Shown here: in pieces, positions 1 through 5,909 of the stretch
Numbering within the stretch: the first letter of the stretch is position 1
Layout of the letters: the number at the start of each line of letters is the position of its first letter
DNA from: Hydrogenothermaceae bacterium
Lineage (GTDB): Bacteria > Aquificota > Aquificia > Aquificales > Hydrogenothermaceae
Length of the DNA: 5,909 bases
NCBI GenBank assembly: GCA_012961365.1
Contig: DTZN01000072.1
Coordinates: 1 to 5,909, forward strand
Direction: 5' to 3'
Translations under genes and position numbers: made by a program
Notes under the pieces: generated by a model
Seen by the model: the letters and a program-made list of their open reading frames with translations, nothing else
The model's database searches: none
Told to the model about the DNA's origin: nothing

Positions 1-201
1 CTAATTCAGTACGCTTATGACCCAGTTGATACTTACTGTCCACTTGAAAAGCAGTCTATTGAGTTCGCCTGCTTTTTGCGCCACTAGCTGGTTTGTTAAT
101 TCACCCGCCTTTATCTTGTCGCGAAGTTGGGCAAAGAGTACGCGTCTAAGTTTGTCAGCGTATGCGCCGGCTATTACGAGACCTGTTGAGAGTTGGGGCA
201 T
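1..201 (-). CDS. Short archaeal-type hypothetical protein (possibly truncated, DUF2258-like)
   Basis: This encodes 66 residues from ATG at 201 to a TAG that is the first triplet of the window. An SD-like GGAG lies about 8 nt before the start. The N-terminus (MPQLSTGLVIAGAYADKLRR) resembles, from memory, a crenarchaeal family of unknown function (DUF2258-like). The similarity seems to fade after residue ~52 (GELNRLLF); the last 14 residues (from KWTVSINW) look unlike the family, so the gene may be truncated or frameshifted. It follows the Nre-like ORF by 67 bp on the same strand and shares its higher GC, so both probably come from one archaeal operon. No catalytic motif is visible. The reading frame is fairly secure; the family name is tentative. 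Confidence 0.5.
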   Translation of the reverse strand: MPQLSTGLVIAGAYADKLRRVLFAQLRDKIKAGELTNQLVAQKAGELNRLLFKWTVSINWVISVLN

Positions 202-268
202 GTCAATTCTCCATACTAAGATTTTTATTGTGGTAGTATTTCGGTTTATTGGTCTGAAGCGTTTTTGT

Positions 269-1222
269 CTAGAAGTAGTGATCTAGTCTCTTTTGATTGT
301 AGAGTCTGTCGAAAATCCTCGACCTTTCAATTATTGTGCTTAAGAGATTTTTGTCCTTTAGGCTTGTACCTAGTAATTCAATAGCTTCTTTTAGATTGTT
401 TGATTTTAGCATAGGCTGTGATAGAGCATGGGCTGTTGTTAAGCGAATATGCCAATTTCCAACAGGTGCATAGTAGTCTGGCGTTATTTCGCGCACTATG
501 AGTACGCTGGCTTGTCTTTTTCTCCTTGCAAGATGTTCTAGAATAGATAGTCGTGCAGCCATCATGCCTCCGTCAATTTCTGTAAACCTATTGGGCTTAT
601 CCTCTCTAACCCAATGTAATACGGGTTGTCCTGCATTTTGTGTCCAGATTGTGGAAGGATGCCATATTTCAACCATTTCAAGTCTATAGGGGCCTGGAAA
701 GAGTATTATGATGAACTTGTTTCCAATGTATGATGCAGTGTAAACCTCGATATAGTCTACAACCTTATTCTCGAACTTAATTATCTCAAGCAGTTTTGTT
801 GCTATTGCACTATCAACTGCAGTTATAGCCCATCTTGTTGGGACTAGGCGTCTATTCCGTTTTACACCTAATAGACCGAGAGAGAAAGCTCGTACAATTG
901 TGTAGAAGTCAACTCTTCCTTTGTAGAGTAGCCATACAGCTTCGGAGGCCTTTACATCATCCCACACTAGTTTTTCTCTTGTGTCGTATATGGGGATATC
1001 TATTCTAATACCTGTATTGACAGGTGCTTCAAGTTGGCTTTGTCCTTGTATGTCTTTTTGCAACTTTGCATATGCGGAAATTCTAAATTGTATTTTTGAG
1101 GCTTTTGGTGTGAGTAGCTTTACTATTTTTATGCATGCATTATTCTGTGTGTTATCTTGTGCGTATATAAAAAATGAAAAAAGTAAAGTGAAGATGAAAA
1201 ATAGAAATGCTTTTTGTTTCAT
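269..1222 (-). CDS. Chimeric ORF: bacterial signal peptide segment fused to archaeal Nre C-terminal region with PIP box
   Basis: 317 residues in two unlike parts. Residues 1-22 form a textbook Sec signal peptide (MKQK, a Phe/Leu-rich core, then a Tyr-Ala-Gln cleavage region). Residues ~23-85 look like the start of a bacterial exported protein (APVNTGIRIDIPIYDTREKL). From about V86 the protein matches, from memory, the C-terminal region of archaeal Nre proteins: VWDDVKASEAV, RRLVPTRWAITAVD (124-137), FPGPYRLEMVEIW, REITPDYYAPVGNWHIR. It ends in QKRLDHYF, a PCNA-interacting motif (Q-x-x-L-x-x-Y-F). The Nre N-terminal domain and zinc-binding cysteines are missing. Nre proteins act in DNA repair with PCNA in the cytoplasm, so an exported copy makes no functional sense. 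The start overlaps the HU stop (ATGA), consistent with an operon in which the original exported gene lost its 3' part. Probably non-functional or an artefact. Confidence 0.75.
   Translation of the reverse strand: MKQKAFLFFIFTLLFSFFIYAQDNTQNNACIKIVKLLTPKASKIQFRISAYAKLQKDIQGQSQLEAPVNTGIRIDIPIYDTREKLVWDDVKASEAVWLLYKGRVDFYTIVRAFSLGLLGVKRNRRLVPTRWAITAVDSAIATKLLEIIKFENKVVDYIEVYTASYIGNKFIIILFPGPYRLEMVEIWHPSTIWTQNAGQPVLHWVREDKPNRFTEIDGGMMAARLSILEHLARRKRQASVLIVREITPDYYAPVGNWHIRLTTAHALSQPMLKSNNLKEAIELLGTSLKDKNLLSTIIERSRIFDRLYNQKRLDHYF
272..295 (-). other. C-terminal PIP box (PCNA-interacting peptide)
   Basis: The last eight codons before the TAG encode QKRLDHYF, matching the Q-x-x-h-x-x-a-a pattern of PCNA-binding peptides and the QKxLDxFF-like tails known from archaeal Nre proteins. 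Bacterial sliding clamps use a different motif, so this tail supports an archaeal origin for the 3' part of the ORF. Confidence 0.7.
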
Positions 1223-1524
1223 AGTGCTACAATGTCGATTTTTAATTTTTTTCCTGATTTGAAGAATATATAAGTTCTTTCTCCTCCTTTGTGTGCATTT
1301 TTTGTTTTATTCGGTGTCGGGGGTAGTTTTCTGTTTCTTGTCATGAATGCTCCGTAGGGTTTTAGCTCTACTCTTATATCTTCGAAGTTTTTCAATTTCT
1401 CTTCTAGAAATTTCATTAGACTTAATATTACTTCTTCTATTTCTTTTGTGCTTAGCTCTATTTGTTGTTTTGATAGTATCTGTTTTAGTTCTTTTGCTAG
1501 TTCTTTTCTTGTGTAAATTCTCAT
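1219..1524 (-). CDS. HU/IHF-family DNA-binding protein
   Basis: 101 residues, the usual size for HU/IHF (about 90-100). The start is MRIYTRKEL at 1524, because an excellent SD (AGGAGG, 1533-1538) lies 8 nt upstream. The frame is open further up to 1659, but that extension is mostly a lysine/glutamine-rich run from an A-rich tract. The pattern is HU-like: an N-terminal helical dimerisation part (TRKELAKELKQ, then about 25 helical residues), the VELKPYGAF turn matching the VELRGFGTF signature of HU, a basic arm around RNRKLPPTPNKTK, and YIFFKSGKKLKI in place of the conserved FKPGKxL tail. The usual Arg-Asn-Pro arm tip is altered, so it is a divergent member. The gene overlaps the recombinase 3' end in another frame and overlaps the next ORF by 4 nt. 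It may be an accessory DNA-bending factor for the recombinase. Confidence 0.8.
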   Translation of the reverse strand: MRIYTRKELAKELKQILSKQQIELSTKEIEEVILSLMKFLEEKLKNFEDIRVELKPYGAFMTRNRKLPPTPNKTKNAHKGGERTYIFFKSGKKLKIDIVAL

Positions 1525-2803
1525 TTGTTTTACCTCCTTTTTTTGTTTTTTCTTTTTTTGTTTTTTCTTCTTTGTTTTTAATTTGACGCAAATAAACCTG
1601 TCGTTCCTCCTCTTTTCTTTGTGAGAGGTAGGAAATATCTTTACCCTGCGCAAGTGCAAAATTTAGTATTTGTTTGTATGTATTGATTGCTCTTGTTAGT
1701 CTATAAAGTTTATAGATTTTGTTTTGTGTTAGTTCTTCTTTTTCTTTTAAACTGATAAGCTCTTTTTCTAATCTTGTTATTTTTAGCTTTAAAGTTTCTT
1801 CAAAGTTTAGATTGTATTTTCTTGCAAAGAATGTTAGTTCTAAAAATCTAGATAGAAATTTGATATAGCGTTTTTTAAAATTGTGTTTTGCGTTGACGAG
1901 GTCTTTTATAAACTCTGTTAGGGGTCTTAAGGGGTGGGTCCATTTTTGGGTTCTTCTGTGGGCTTGCATGTAAAGGGTATAAAAAATACCTTTTATTTCG
2001 GTTCTTGCTTTGTCTGTTTTTACTTTATATATGCTTGTCCCTGATTGCTCTAAGTTTGCTCCCATAAGTGTATAAGCGATATATTTATCTTTGTCTTTAA
2101 AGTCTTTGATGTCCCATGAGTATGCTAAGAGTGTTGCAATTTGAAGGTCTCCTATTGGGAAGGTTTTGAGGATTTCATAACCGGGATGGTTCTTTGCGAT
2201 TGATATTATTTCTTTTTCTAGTTTTTGATTTTCTTCTAATGCTATTTTTAATTTTTTGAGTTCTGTAAGTGCAATGTCTGAAAGTGTATGAGGGGTTTGT
2301 TTTAGTTTTTTTTCAATAGATGTTAAAGATTTAAAAAATTTGCTTCTACTAAGAAGGTGATATTCTTCAAAGGGAAAAATCATTGCAAGGTATTGTTTTA
2401 GTCGGTTGGTGTGTTTGGTGATGTCTTTTTCGTTTCTTATGTGTTGTCGTATTAAGGCTCTGATATAAATCTGATGTGGGTTGTAGGGTCTTAATTTTGT
2501 TCTTTTTTCTTTTTCTAGGTAGTATTTTCTAAGATAAAAAGCATCTAAGCGGTCATCTTTTTTTCTTGAATGTGCTAAGCGGTAGTTTTTAAAGTCTCTT
2601 CCATCTGCTATAAATACTTTACATCCTATAGAGGTGAAGATTTCTGCCCAGCGGCTTCCGTATGCTCCTGTTTGTTCGAGGACTATAATACATTTTTCAT
2701 TAATTATTTCTTTAGCTTCTGATGGGGTGGAAATATTATATGCATTTTTTTCATCGTGAAGTATAATATTTTTTGCTCCTACATCGCAGCCGTATATTTT
2801 CAT
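1307..2803 (-). CDS. IS110/Piv-family DEDD transposase (recombinase) with extended C-terminus
   Basis: 498 residues in the open frame; the start at 2803 has GGAG 8-9 nt upstream. The N-terminal RuvC-like domain shows the DEDD set: D7 (YGCDVGAK), E43 (VLEQTGAYG), and D84 and D87 (KKDDRLDA). A helical linker covers ~100-200. The second, Tnp2-type domain starts near 205 (YEILKTFPIGDLQIATLLAY) and carries the SG motif with probable nucleophile S254 (LEQSGTS), followed by KARTEIKGIFY. This combination is diagnostic of IS110. Family members are usually 300-450 residues and use a noncoding bridge RNA to choose donor and target DNA. Residues ~340-410 are an extra helical, charged tail. After ~410 the frame crosses A-runs and then reads the HU gene out of frame, so those ~75 residues are probably not a real domain. 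A -1 shift at the last A7 run would end the protein at 424 residues. Confidence 0.85.
   Translation of the reverse strand: MKIYGCDVGAKNIILHDEKNAYNISTPSEAKEIINEKCIIVLEQTGAYGSRWAEIFTSIGCKVFIADGRDFKNYRLAHSRKKDDRLDAFYLRKYYLEKEKRTKLRPYNPHQIYIRALIRQHIRNEKDITKHTNRLKQYLAMIFPFEEYHLLSRSKFFKSLTSIEKKLKQTPHTLSDIALTELKKLKIALEENQKLEKEIISIAKNHPGYEILKTFPIGDLQIATLLAYSWDIKDFKDKDKYIAYTLMGANLEQSGTSIYKVKTDKARTEIKGIFYTLYMQAHRRTQKWTHPLRPLTEFIKDLVNAKHNFKKRYIKFLSRFLELTFFARKYNLNFEETLKLKITRLEKELISLKEKEELTQNKIYKLYRLTRAINTYKQILNFALAQGKDISYLSQRKEEERQVYLRQIKNKEEKTKKEKTKKGGKTNENLHKKRTSKRTKTDTIKTTNRAKHKRNRRSNIKSNEISRREIEKLRRYKSRAKTLRSIHDKKQKTTPDTE
1533..1538 (-). promoter_or_regulatory. Strong Shine-Dalgarno site of the HU-like gene
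   Basis: AGGAGG lies 8 nt before the ATG at 1524, inside the recombinase reading frame. It decides the HU start and rules out the longer, lysine-rich N-terminal extension. Confidence 0.75.
1538..1566 (-). other. A-rich slippery tract near the recombinase 3' end
   Basis: On the minus strand the tract is A6-C-A7-G-A6-C-A7, running directly into the HU Shine-Dalgarno. In the recombinase frame both A7 runs read A_AAA_AAA followed by G, a classical -1 slippery heptamer. A -1 shift at the second run gives Arg-Arg and a TAA at 1530-1532, eight bases before the HU ATG. The tract could be a programmed frameshift site or an indel or sequencing-error hotspot. Confidence 0.5.
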
Positions 2804-2888
2804 CTTGCTCTCCTTTTTCTTTTTTTATTATTTTTATTATTATTTTATTTATTTTTTTATTACCATTACATTTTTGTTTTTTATTTTT

Positions 2889-2966
2889 AAGAGGACAGGT
2901 AAGGATTATACATTTCTCCTCTTACACTTAAAGAAGGAATAATAACATCTCCCTTCCTGTCCTCTT
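2889..2966 (-). ncRNA. Candidate structured RNA (possible IS110 bridge RNA) upstream of the recombinase
   Basis: A perfect 11-bp inverted repeat, AAGAGGACAGG (2889-2899) with CCTGTCCTCTT (2956-2966), closes a 78-nt element. The stem continues inward with AAGG/CCTT (2901-2904 with 2952-2955) after a one-base bulge. An inner hairpin pairs 2917-2923 with 2931-2938, with a single bulged A and a 7-nt loop. Elements of the IS110 group carry their guide (bridge) RNA in the noncoding left end just before the recombinase gene, which is where this structure sits, 86 nt before the ATG. The sequence between it and the ATG is A-rich and shows no structure. The structure is visible directly; the bridge-RNA role is inference. 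It could instead act in the nifA leader, since the fold is possible on either strand. Confidence 0.45.
2889..2966. repeat. Imperfect inverted repeat, 11-bp perfect arms
   Basis: The arms are 2889-2899 and 2956-2966, with four further pairs inside. The 56-nt spacer is too long for a simple rho-independent terminator. The element is the only strong palindrome in the spacer between the recombinase and nifA. Confidence 0.8.
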
Positions 2967-3019
2967 TATTTTGATTAAAGTTTAAGTTTAATGTAAGATA
3001 ATAACTTAATCATAAAATA
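2964..3019 (-). promoter_or_regulatory. Weak candidate sigma-70 promoter for the candidate RNA and recombinase
   Basis: Reading the minus strand downward from nifA, TTGTTA is followed after 17 bases by TATCTT, each matching four of six consensus bases. Transcription would start about ten bases further on, so it would include the whole stem-loop at 2889-2966 and then the recombinase gene. AT-rich DNA gives such matches easily, so this is tentative. Confidence 0.25.
2971..2999 (+). promoter_or_regulatory. Candidate sigma-70 promoter of nifA
   Basis: TTGATT (2971-2976) and TAAGAT (2994-2999) are separated by exactly 17 bases, each four of six matches to the -35 and -10 consensus. A start near 3006 would leave a leader of about 35 nt before the TTG start codon. 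The 17-bp motif at 3015-3031 would lie just downstream of the start point, where a repressor could block transcription. No sigma-54 promoter was seen in front of nifA. Confidence 0.35.
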
Positions 3020-3031
3020 ACAAAATTGTAA
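3015..3031 (+). promoter_or_regulatory. 17-bp shared motif, candidate operator (nifA copy)
   Basis: AAATAACAAAATTGTAA occurs here, ending 8 nt before the nifA start codon, and again exactly at 5676-5692. It contains the inverted repeat ACAA-AA-TTGT, as expected of a dimeric regulator's site. The binding protein is unknown. Confidence 0.4.
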
Positions 3032-3039
3032 TTGGTAAA

Positions 3040-3408
3040 TTGATAGAAAAAATACAGTTATCTGTAATTTACAACATAAGTAAAGCTTTGTCATCTTCAC
3101 AGGATATAAAAAAGAACCTTGAATATATTGTTAATTTGCTTATTTCATACTTAGGATATAAACATGTTTTTGTAAATCTTGAAAATCCAATTACAGGAAA
3201 ATTAGAAAATATTGGAGACTTAGATTTAACATATTCTAAAGGAGAAGGAATTACAGGAAAAGTTTGGAAATATGGAGTTCCTATAGTTATACCTGATGTA
3301 TCAAAAGAAAAACAATTTTTAAATAAACTAAATAGAAATTTAGATAAAAATGGGGAGAAATTTACATTCATAGCAGTTCCAATAAAAATAAAAGAAAAAG
3401 TCATTTGA
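3040..3408 (+). CDS. NifA N-terminal GAF fragment (up to the internal TGA)
   Basis: 122 residues from TTG to the TGA. Residues 1-20 have the typical NifA opening (YNISKALSSS), followed by a GAF fold with LLISYLGYKHVFVNL, the GKLENIGD strand, GEGITGKVWKYGVPIVIPDV (the most recognisable GAF motif) and FTFIAVPIKIKEKVI just before the stop. In NifA the GAF domain senses a nitrogen or metabolic signal (2-oxoglutarate in some species) and restrains the AAA+ domain. On its own this piece has no output domain. No clear Shine-Dalgarno precedes the TTG. Confidence 0.55.
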   Translation: MIEKIQLSVIYNISKALSSSQDIKKNLEYIVNLLISYLGYKHVFVNLENPITGKLENIGDLDLTYSKGEGITGKVWKYGVPIVIPDVSKEKQFLNKLNRNLDKNGEKFTFIAVPIKIKEKVI

Positions 3409-3474
3409 GTTTTAGCAGTAGATAAAGAATATACTCCTAAAGAACCTATAAACATACATACAGAATTTTTAACA

Positions 3475-4569
3475 ATGATAGCAAATATACTAGGAAGCTA
3501 TTTAAAACTATATTTAGATTTTGAAGAAGAAAAAAGAAAAATAGAAGAAGAAAAAAATTATCTACAAAATCAGCTTAATGCAATTGTTTCCAAAACAAAG
3601 GTAGAAGGAATAGTAGCAAAGAGTCCTAAAATATTAGAAATTATCGAAACTATTAAAAATATAGCAAATACCCCTGCAACAGTATTGATTACAGGAGAAA
3701 GTGGAGTAGGAAAAGAAGTTTTCGCAAAAGCGATACATCAGTTATCAGATAGAGCTGATAAACCATTTATAAAAATAAATTGTGCGGCTATTCCTGAAGA
3801 TTTGCTAGAAAGTGAACTATTTGGATATGAAAAAGGGGCATTTACAGGGGCAAATAAAACAAAAAAAGGCAAATTTGAATTAGCAAATGGTGGAAGTATA
3901 TTTTTAGATGAAATAGGAGATATGCCATTATCCCTTCAAGCAAAAATACTAAGAGTGCTACAAGAAAAAGAAATAGAAAGACTAGGCTCAAGCTCTCCAA
4001 TAAAAGTAGATGCTAGAATTATTGCAGCAACAAATAAAGACCTTGAAAGAATGGTTATAGAAGGAACATTTAGAGAAGATTTATACTATAGATTAAATGT
4101 AATTCCTATTCACATACCACCACTAAGAGAAAGAAAAGAAGATATACCTGTTTTAGTTTATTATTTTCTAGATAAATTTAATAAAACCTATGGTAAAAAA
4201 CTAACAATATCTAAAAAACTCATAGATTTATTTATCCAATACCAATGGCCAGGAAATGTTAGACAACTTCAAAATACTATAGAAAGAATGGTTATTCTAG
4301 CTAAATCACCAGTTTTAGATGTAAAAGACTTACCATCTGATTTAAAAAATAAAATGCTAGAAAAACCAAATAAAGAAATATTAATTAAAAATGAAAAAAT
4401 TGTGGAAAAACAACTTCCAAAAACTGTAGAGCAATTAGAAAAAGAAGCTATTATAAAAGCTCTTGAAGAAAGCGGTTATGTAGTAAAAAAAGCAGCAAAA
4501 ATACTAGGCATGACACCTAGACAAGTAAGATACAGAATAGAAAAGTATAAAATTCCCTTCAAAAAGTAG
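3475..4569 (+). CDS. NifA AAA+ and DNA-binding part (after the internal TGA)
   Basis: 364 residues from ATG 3475. Motifs by residue here: Walker A GESGVGKE (74-81), the sigma-54 contact loop GAFTGA (121-126), Walker B FLDEIG (143-148), the arginine-finger region FREDLYYRLNV (199-209), sensor II WPGNVRQLQN (258-267), and a C-terminal helix-turn-helix AAKILGMTPRQVRYRIEKY (340-358), whose GMTPRQ is characteristic of NifA. All ATPase and sigma-54-binding residues are present. No Shine-Dalgarno stands before this ATG, so independent translation would be weak. If made, it would lack most of the GAF domain; GAF-less NifA is known to be active but unregulated in some bacteria. Confidence 0.7.
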   Translation: MIANILGSYLKLYLDFEEEKRKIEEEKNYLQNQLNAIVSKTKVEGIVAKSPKILEIIETIKNIANTPATVLITGESGVGKEVFAKAIHQLSDRADKPFIKINCAAIPEDLLESELFGYEKGAFTGANKTKKGKFELANGGSIFLDEIGDMPLSLQAKILRVLQEKEIERLGSSSPIKVDARIIAATNKDLERMVIEGTFREDLYYRLNVIPIHIPPLRERKEDIPVLVYYFLDKFNKTYGKKLTISKKLIDLFIQYQWPGNVRQLQNTIERMVILAKSPVLDVKDLPSDLKNKMLEKPNKEILIKNEKIVEKQLPKTVEQLEKEAIIKALEESGYVVKKAAKILGMTPRQVRYRIEKYKIPFKK

Positions 4570-5575
4570 CTTTAGAAGATAAAGATTTGTATATTTCAAA
4601 ACTTTCCAATGCCGAACCTGTTCTTAAACTTTCTTCTGCAAGCTTAGTTGCTTTGGATATATCACTTTCTAGACCATAAGCATATATTATAAGACCAGCA
4701 GTTATTATAGCCCAATCCTTAAAAGGATTATCCTCATTTTTAAGTATTGATAAACAAAGCTTTGCATTTTCTTCTACAGATAAATCTTTAGATAAATCAA
4801 CTTTTTCTTTTAAATCTTTAGGGAAAATAGATATAGAAAATATTTTGCTAGTGTAAACCTTAGTCTCCTTATTTGGAAATGGTTCAATACCTCCTTCTAA
4901 TCCTTTTACAACAAATATATCTTTAAACCCACTATAAAATGCAAGTTGTATATATTTATCTATAAAATTAGAATGGGTAACTCCTATTAAAACTTTTGTT
5001 GTTTTAAATGGATTTAATAATTTTTCCACAGTATTTAAATAACTTCTAAGCCCATATTCTTGCCTTTTAGAAAGTAATCTATACAGTTTTGGATTTAAAA
5101 ACTTTTGATGATAAAAAGCAAATCCAGAAAGCTCTAAGGATTTCAAAATATCATCTGCAAAAGAAAGGTAAGAACACCCCATAGCATTTAATATTTCATG
5201 GTAAGTAATACCAAATTTAGAAGGAATATTTGAAGCTCCATGTCCAACAATTTTAGCGCCTGCTCCTGCGGATATAAAAATAGCACATGGCAATATATGG
5301 ATACTTCTATTTTTCCCATCATATCCAATAGCTATATCAATAGGAATTAAATCTCCTGTTTCAATAAAATTGGTTTCTTCTTTTAGAGAGTCTAAGAATG
5401 CAGACAGTTCCTCTAATGTAGAATGTTTCATTCTTAAAGCAGACCAAAATGCCCCTATCTGAATATCTGTGACACTTAAATCTAATATTTTCTTATTTAC
5501 TTCATATGCCTCTTCATAAGATAAGTCTTTTGCTTTATCTTTACCTACACCTACTTTTTTCAAGAACTCTATCAT
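4559..5575 (-). CDS. TrpD-like (anthranilate phosphoribosyltransferase family, TrpD2/YbiB-type) protein
   Basis: 338 residues, the TrpD length. ATG 5575 has GGTGA about 5-9 nt upstream. The N-terminal helical bundle (1-70) includes SVTDIQIGAFWSALRMKHST, the family's 'Q..AfL.Alr.Kg.t' pattern. The glycine-rich region reads IGYDGKNRSIHILPCAIF (~83-100) in place of the TrpD VGTGGDG..TFN loop, and GAKIVGHGASNIPSKFG replaces the VAKHGN.S.SS..G motif. The canonical PRPP-binding and anthranilate-binding residues are therefore largely changed, as in the TrpD2 (YbiB) branch, which is not a tryptophan enzyme and in E. coli binds nucleic acid. The true substrate is unknown. It is divergent from glnB and preceded by its own sigma-54-type promoter, so a nitrogen-regulated role is inferred. 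Membership of the superfamily is secure; activity is not. Confidence 0.75.
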   Translation of the reverse strand: MIEFLKKVGVGKDKAKDLSYEEAYEVNKKILDLSVTDIQIGAFWSALRMKHSTLEELSAFLDSLKEETNFIETGDLIPIDIAIGYDGKNRSIHILPCAIFISAGAGAKIVGHGASNIPSKFGITYHEILNAMGCSYLSFADDILKSLELSGFAFYHQKFLNPKLYRLLSKRQEYGLRSYLNTVEKLLNPFKTTKVLIGVTHSNFIDKYIQLAFYSGFKDIFVVKGLEGGIEPFPNKETKVYTSKIFSISIFPKDLKEKVDLSKDLSVEENAKLCLSILKNEDNPFKDWAIITAGLIIYAYGLESDISKATKLAEESLRTGSALESFEIYKSLSSKATF

Positions 5576-5624
5576 TTATTCACCATTAAAATTATCCAAT
5601 TTTTAATAGCTATTATAATTGTAA

Positions 5625-5640
5625 AGCAATAACTATGCCA
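5625..5640 (-). promoter_or_regulatory. Sigma-54 (-24/-12) promoter of the TrpD-like gene
   Basis: On the minus strand TGGCATAGTTATTGCT fits TGGCACG-N4-TTGCT, with an intact GG and GC at the correct 12-base phase. Start would be near 5614, giving a leader of about 39 nt before ATG 5575. It is one of two -24/-12 elements in this spacer, pointing away from each other. Confidence 0.6.
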
Positions 5641-5675
5641 ACAAAAAACTCCTAAACACTAAAGTTTTATATACC

Positions 5676-5692
5676 AAATAACAAAATTGTAA
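5676..5692 (+). promoter_or_regulatory. 17-bp shared motif, candidate operator (glnB/trpD-like spacer copy)
   Basis: Exact repeat of the motif in front of nifA. Here it lies between the two divergent sigma-54 promoters, about 110 bp upstream of the glnB start point and 70 bp upstream of the TrpD-like start point, a distance suited to an activator or shared regulator. A shorter match, AATTGTAA, recurs at 5617-5624. Confidence 0.4.
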
Positions 5693-5768
5693 ATACATTT
5701 TTGTGATTAAAGCACTAAATAAATAAAAATATACAGGTACTATTAGCCTATTTAAAGCTTTATAAATC

Positions 5769-5784
5769 TGGCATGAATTTTGTT
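5769..5784 (+). promoter_or_regulatory. Sigma-54 (-24/-12) promoter of glnB/glnK
   Basis: TGGCATGAATTTTGTT matches TGGCACG-N4-TTGCT at ten of the twelve defined positions with correct spacing. The start point would be near 5795, about 29 nt before the ATG. Sigma-54 control of PII genes is common, and a NifA-type activator is encoded 1.3 kb away. Confidence 0.65.
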
Positions 5785-5787
5785 TAA

Positions 5788-5909
<122 letters not shown>

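Follow-up and report, generated by a model that had tools for sequence, protein, structure and literature searches.

A bacterial exported-protein gene joined to an archaeal nre fragment on an Aquificota contig, probably a chimera made outside the cell

The window analyzed here is one entire contig (C72; 5,909 bases) of a draft Aquificota genome (G000), which consists of 1,648,734 bases in 315 contigs and has a completeness of 93.68 and a contamination of 6.8%. It contains an open reading frame (ORF) of 317 amino acids at positions 269 to 1222 on the minus strand. An earlier note had described this ORF as changing identity near codon 85, from a bacterial N-terminal part to the C-terminal part of an archaeal Nre DNA-repair protein. 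Separate searches with the two halves bore this out: residues 1 to 85 are bacterial and residues 83 to 317 are archaeal Nre, intact forms of both are present in public data (P0129 and P0002, respectively), and the exact matches to these two proteins place the change at residues 82 to 85. The features of the window are as follows.

1..45, no strand: terminal bases of the contig, outside the archaeal fragment and matching neither parent; the Pyrodictium sp. SZUA-1443 match begins at 46
46..201, minus: start of a ThermoDBP-related gene, archaeal, cut by the joint (PF10015, E value 2.8e-19, profile positions 1 to 53 of 78); same neighbor in the same order in Pyrodictium sp. SZUA-1443
46..977, minus: archaeal genomic fragment of 932 bases, a single unbroken blastn match to Pyrodictium sp. 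SZUA-1443 (L002)
269..976, minus: C-terminal 235 codons of nre plus stop, with the end of Nre_N, Nre_C, and a PIP-type motif at the end (234/235 to P0002)
967..977, minus: bacterial/archaeal joint; at most 11 bases common to both parents, the Glu-Lys-Leu codons with a single flanking base to either side (overlap of the protein matches at residues 83 to 85; L002 matches through 977)
968..1222, minus: exported-protein gene, first 85 codons, bacterial (85/85 to P0129; relatives in G054 and G124)
1219..1524, minus: HU-like DNA-binding protein gene, 101 amino acids from ATG, upstream neighbor of the exported-protein gene (PF00216, E value 4.5e-6 on the longer mechanical ORF 1219 to 1659)
1307..2803, minus: IS110-like transposase gene, 498 amino acids (PF01548, E value 6.9e-12); 67% identical to the G054 transposase in the same gene order

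The bacterial part begins with a sequence that by eye resembles a Sec signal peptide. Its 85 residues are all identical to those of P0129, an intact bacterial protein of 173 amino acids that then continues as a normal member of its family; the P0129 cluster comprises 2 sequences on 7 contigs, the longest of 80,948 bases. Proteins of this family have about 165 to 200 residues, and the ORF matches for 85 of them and then no further. When residues 1 to 85 were searched against 136 genomes of the phylum, 15 matched at an E value of ≤0.1, one of them the window itself, and the convincing relatives were those in G124 (1e-14) and G054 (3e-14). The other 12 matches (E values of 2e-4 to 0.09) were treated as chance matches of hydrophobic N termini; the sole one inspected, in G002, lies in the frame of a 348-amino-acid protein of another kind. 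A profile built from the G054 and G124 relatives retrieved 14 proteins (P0121 to P0134), none of which carries an Nre domain or any other Pfam domain. Among proteins of 174 to 555 amino acids, residues 1 to 84 matched the protein of the window alone. No relatives of residues 1 to 85 were found in viral contigs or plasmids, and none of P0129 in viral contigs.

The archaeal part reaches beyond nre. Positions 46 to 977 match Pyrodictium sp. SZUA-1443 with 765/935 identical positions (blastn), the match ends abruptly at both sides, and the GC content of the fragment is 0.413, versus 0.272 in positions 2821 to 5909. The ThermoDBP-related gene comes after nre in Pyrodictium sp. SZUA-1443, an order that the contig keeps; its mechanical ORF continues across the 45 foreign bases as far as base 1. 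Residues 83 to 317 of the chimeric ORF are identical at 234/235 positions to P0002, a 421-amino-acid archaeal Nre with a complete Nre_N (1 to 270) and Nre_C. In the ORF, Pfam detected only the end of Nre_N (profile positions 157 to 270 of 270; residues 81 to 194; E value 1.8e-43) and Nre_C (residues 212 to 316; E value 4.2e-28). The last eight residues, QKRLDHYF (310 to 317), fit the PIP pattern QXXhXXaa as given in passages of a 2016 review (PMC4929162), so that the terminal PIP box proposed in the earlier note holds as a predicted motif. After P0002, the next Nre matches were P0003 (240 amino acids, 98%, start cut) and P0004 to P0006 (80 to 85%). P0003, a partial Nre from a contig of 1962 bases, starts five residues before the joint point; this may be chance, or another assembly broken at the same place.

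A search of genome contigs with the Nre part gave 49 loci, all with archaeal record titles (archaeal status was looked up for Hestiella and Tiamatella and taken from the name for the others); Pyrodictium sp. SZUA-1443 gave the best match (79%). Those passages of the review call Nre proteins unique to archaea and describe them as about 400 amino acids long and acting with PCNA in the repair of mitomycin damage in Haloferax (PMC4929162). No relatives of the Nre part were found in viral contigs, and no second copy of the archaeal piece was found in G000. The 10.7 kb of L002 matched positions 46 to 977 and nothing else in G000, so no other contig of the bin comes from that archaeal stretch. Within the fragment, positions 46 to 233 are 97% identical to Pyrodictium sp. 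SZUA-1443 (5 mismatches) and positions 234 to 977 only about 78%; the change at about 233 may reflect either an assembly that passed from one strain to another or natural recombination of archaeal strains.

At the bacterial/archaeal joint, the 11 shared bases are an upper bound taken from the protein matches, and the real stretch may be shorter. The frame stays open across the joint because both parents read the shared stretch in one and the same phase, as Glu-Lys-Leu. A second joint lies at 45/46, where the match to the archaeal relatives, which extends as far as base 46, gives way to 45 bases that fit neither parent. About 930 bp of archaeal DNA are thus enclosed by two joints at the end of the contig; the second joint and the archaeal neighbor gene at 46 to 201 are additions to the earlier description of the locus. 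Several searches were made for the origin of the 45 bases. A 26-base part (with ≤3 mismatches) was found in G000 only at this place, masked contigs perhaps lying outside that search. An exact 43-base part was absent from viral contigs, as was the sequence of positions 1 to 46 from Escherichia coli genomes, and the region gave 10 phage records at E values of up to 10, none covering >80% of the query and all at chance level. When positions 1 to 105 were compared with G041 to G044, G041 matched 46 to 105, and positions 1 to 45 gave a single 15-base match, present twice in G044. A bacterial continuation of P0129 was considered for these bases and rejected, as no frame continues P0129 (by eye).

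The bacterial neighborhood has a conserved arrangement. The order IS110-like transposase, HU-like gene, and exported-protein gene, all on the same strand, is kept in G054 and G124, where the third gene runs past the joint point; G124 has two HU-like genes in the cassette, and G054 has an extra small ORF in between. In the window, the HU-like gene overlaps the transposase gene by 218 bases. Relatives of the IS110-like transposase outside the window were found at 12 loci in 9 genomes of the phylum (E value of ≤1e-40), and five of these (L186, L188, L191, L195, and L196) have an HU-like frame immediately downstream of the transposase frame on the same strand, abutting it or, more usually, overlapping it; the HU profile was built from the window, G054, and G124, which places two of the five there by construction, and some of the 12 loci are cut short. 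A frame of the exported family occurs at three of the 12 loci, at one of them weakly. HU-like proteins bend DNA. An IS110-like element accompanied by a DNA-bending protein of its own is a lead of possibly greater value than the fusion. In G124, positions 2597 to 6564 of L182 (contig C7) carry phage tail sheath, tube, and baseplate-like genes (by eye) beside the cassette, which may ride there on a prophage. Upstream of the transposase gene of the window, an 11-base perfect inverted repeat was noticed by eye (2889 to 2899, AAGAGGACAGG, and 2956 to 2966, CCTGTCCTCTT), which could mark the element end or a guide RNA. Part of the region 2791 to 3060 resembles the corresponding flank in G054 (74% over 77 bases). 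Rfam gave no match in the window, L165, or L154.

Elsewhere on the contig, a TGA stop (3406 to 3408) interrupts the otherwise open frame 3040 to 4569 and splits the GAF-like part of a NifA-like regulator from its sigma-54 activator part; a sequencing error, a genuine mutation, or decay of the gene could each account for it. GC steps were scanned in 80 of the 315 contigs of the bin (C1 to C71 and C73 to C81, each whole except C38, for which 20,000 of 21,154 bases were used); 36 of these, each of <3,000 bases, read as N and were dropped, leaving 44 plus the window. The step in the window (0.41 to 0.29; z of 7.96) was the second strongest of these 45, after that of C65 (z of 11.24). Among the 44 contigs, two had a GC content above 0.36, C54 (0.401) and C65 (0.467), and both are possibly foreign, which would agree with the contamination estimate. 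C65 (L165; 3575 bases) has a GC content of 0.362 on its left and 0.551 on its right and bears a UDP-glucose dehydrogenase frame with the first domain only; it is possibly foreign or a second chimera. Its epimerase shares 35 to 36% identity with proteins of two archaeal genomes and 31 to 33% with the best ones in two G000 relatives, and no match to it was found in G041 or G140.

Taken as a sequence, the 317-residue ORF is a piece of each parent and a full member of neither the Nre nor the P0129 family. We estimate the probability at roughly 90% that its bacterial 5′ half and archaeal nre 3′ half form a chimera made outside the cell, in amplification, library making, or assembly. This reading is preferred because both parents are whole, the archaeal fragment is cut at both ends, it lies at a contig end, and the bin is contaminated. 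P0129 and P0002 are intact and separate, as the parents of a chimeric sequence artefact would be, and the joint is missing from the other records of both genes among the proteins listed (in one search, proteins of 174 to 555 amino acids). The archaeal fragment of about 930 bases would have become attached to bacterial DNA when a free bacterial DNA end annealed to archaeal template DNA through a stretch of at most 11 bases (967 to 977) and was extended, or when fragments were ligated. A second event of this kind at 45/46 would have added the third piece, and the 317-residue protein would then be made by no organism. The two-part ORF is a real observation; the gene itself is very likely not real. 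Some points speak against an artefact: a stronger GC step occurs in only 1 of the 44 other readable contigs, so such contigs are not common in the bin, and near-identical parents would also be expected from recent transfer in a shared habitat.

The earlier note had left two possibilities, recombination of an archaeal fragment into an exported-protein gene and artificial joining of two DNAs; the evidence favors the second, and the first is quite unlikely. In such a recombination, a short piece of archaeal DNA would have entered an Aquificota bacterium in a hot habitat common to both organisms, and microhomology joining would have placed it in the exported-protein gene beside the IS110-like element, giving a fusion gene that was probably nonfunctional. 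Near-identical parents fit a recent event, and the target gene sits in a mobile-looking cassette, but P0129 shows this gene whole in the closest known relatives, the 45 bases after the archaeal piece fit neither parent, and the piece stands at a contig end in a contaminated bin. Still slightly less probable is a version in which a hyperthermophilic archaeon and its Aquificota neighbor exchanged the bare 930-base fragment by microhomology end joining, with the in-frame landing in a cargo gene of the IS110-like element yielding a secreted, Nre-derived bacterial protein. The fusion protein as a piece of biology finds no support: both parents are whole elsewhere, and the archaeal DNA is itself only a fragment, broken a second time close to the end of the contig.

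A long-standing bacterial family combining an export signal with an Nre-like domain, the result that would have spoken against the note's account, was looked for and not found, and its likelihood is close to negligible. Among the matches listed, certain local alignments to archaeal Nre extend over as much as 90% of the query, but none of the 119 other proteins listed (of 855) covers the whole of it; they cover 63 to 90% each, and the closest five listed cover 74%, residues 83 to 317. The restricted occurrence of residues 1 to 84 among proteins of 174 to 555 amino acids also argues against such a family, as does the finding that the sequences to the two sides of residues 83 to 85 each match a different parent exactly. 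Assembler error alone, in which contigs of two organisms were merged over a short overlap with no chimeric molecule involved, is a rather unlikely variant of the chimera made outside the cell and is counted within its probability. The small contigs of this draft bin and the drop in Pyrodictium identity from 97% to about 78% at about 233, which might stem from a change of strain during assembly, are consistent with it. The overlap at the joint, however, is at most 11 bases and falls short of usual assembler word lengths; we therefore prefer a chimeric molecule, formed by template switching or ligation ahead of sequencing, to an error of assembly alone.

The contig gives no good reason to doubt that Nre is confined to archaea. 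An exported Nre would be without its partner in a bacterium, and nothing suggests that such a protein exists. The database entry calls for caution, as readers would take it for a bacterial Nre or an archaeon-to-bacterium fusion, and trimming of the contig at about 977 would be preferable. The archaeal Nre proteins (NreA/NreB) that act in DNA repair resemble the ORF in its residues 83 to 317, the C-terminal part with Nre_C and a PIP-type C terminus; the first 186 residues of the 421-amino-acid parent are missing, and bacterial sequence stands in their place. The P0121 to P0134 family resembles the ORF in residues 1 to 85 and in the gene order behind the IS110-like and HU-like genes; past residue 85 it has a charged part, helical-looking by eye, that the window lacks. 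Among known artefacts, the contig may best be compared with MDA chimeras, in which, according to parts of the published description (PMC1855051), unrelated sequences are joined over few shared bases (2 to 21 in >70% of joints, at most 11 here). According to the same parts of that source, however, more than 85% of MDA chimeras are inversions within one genome, whereas the contig joins two organisms and a third piece.
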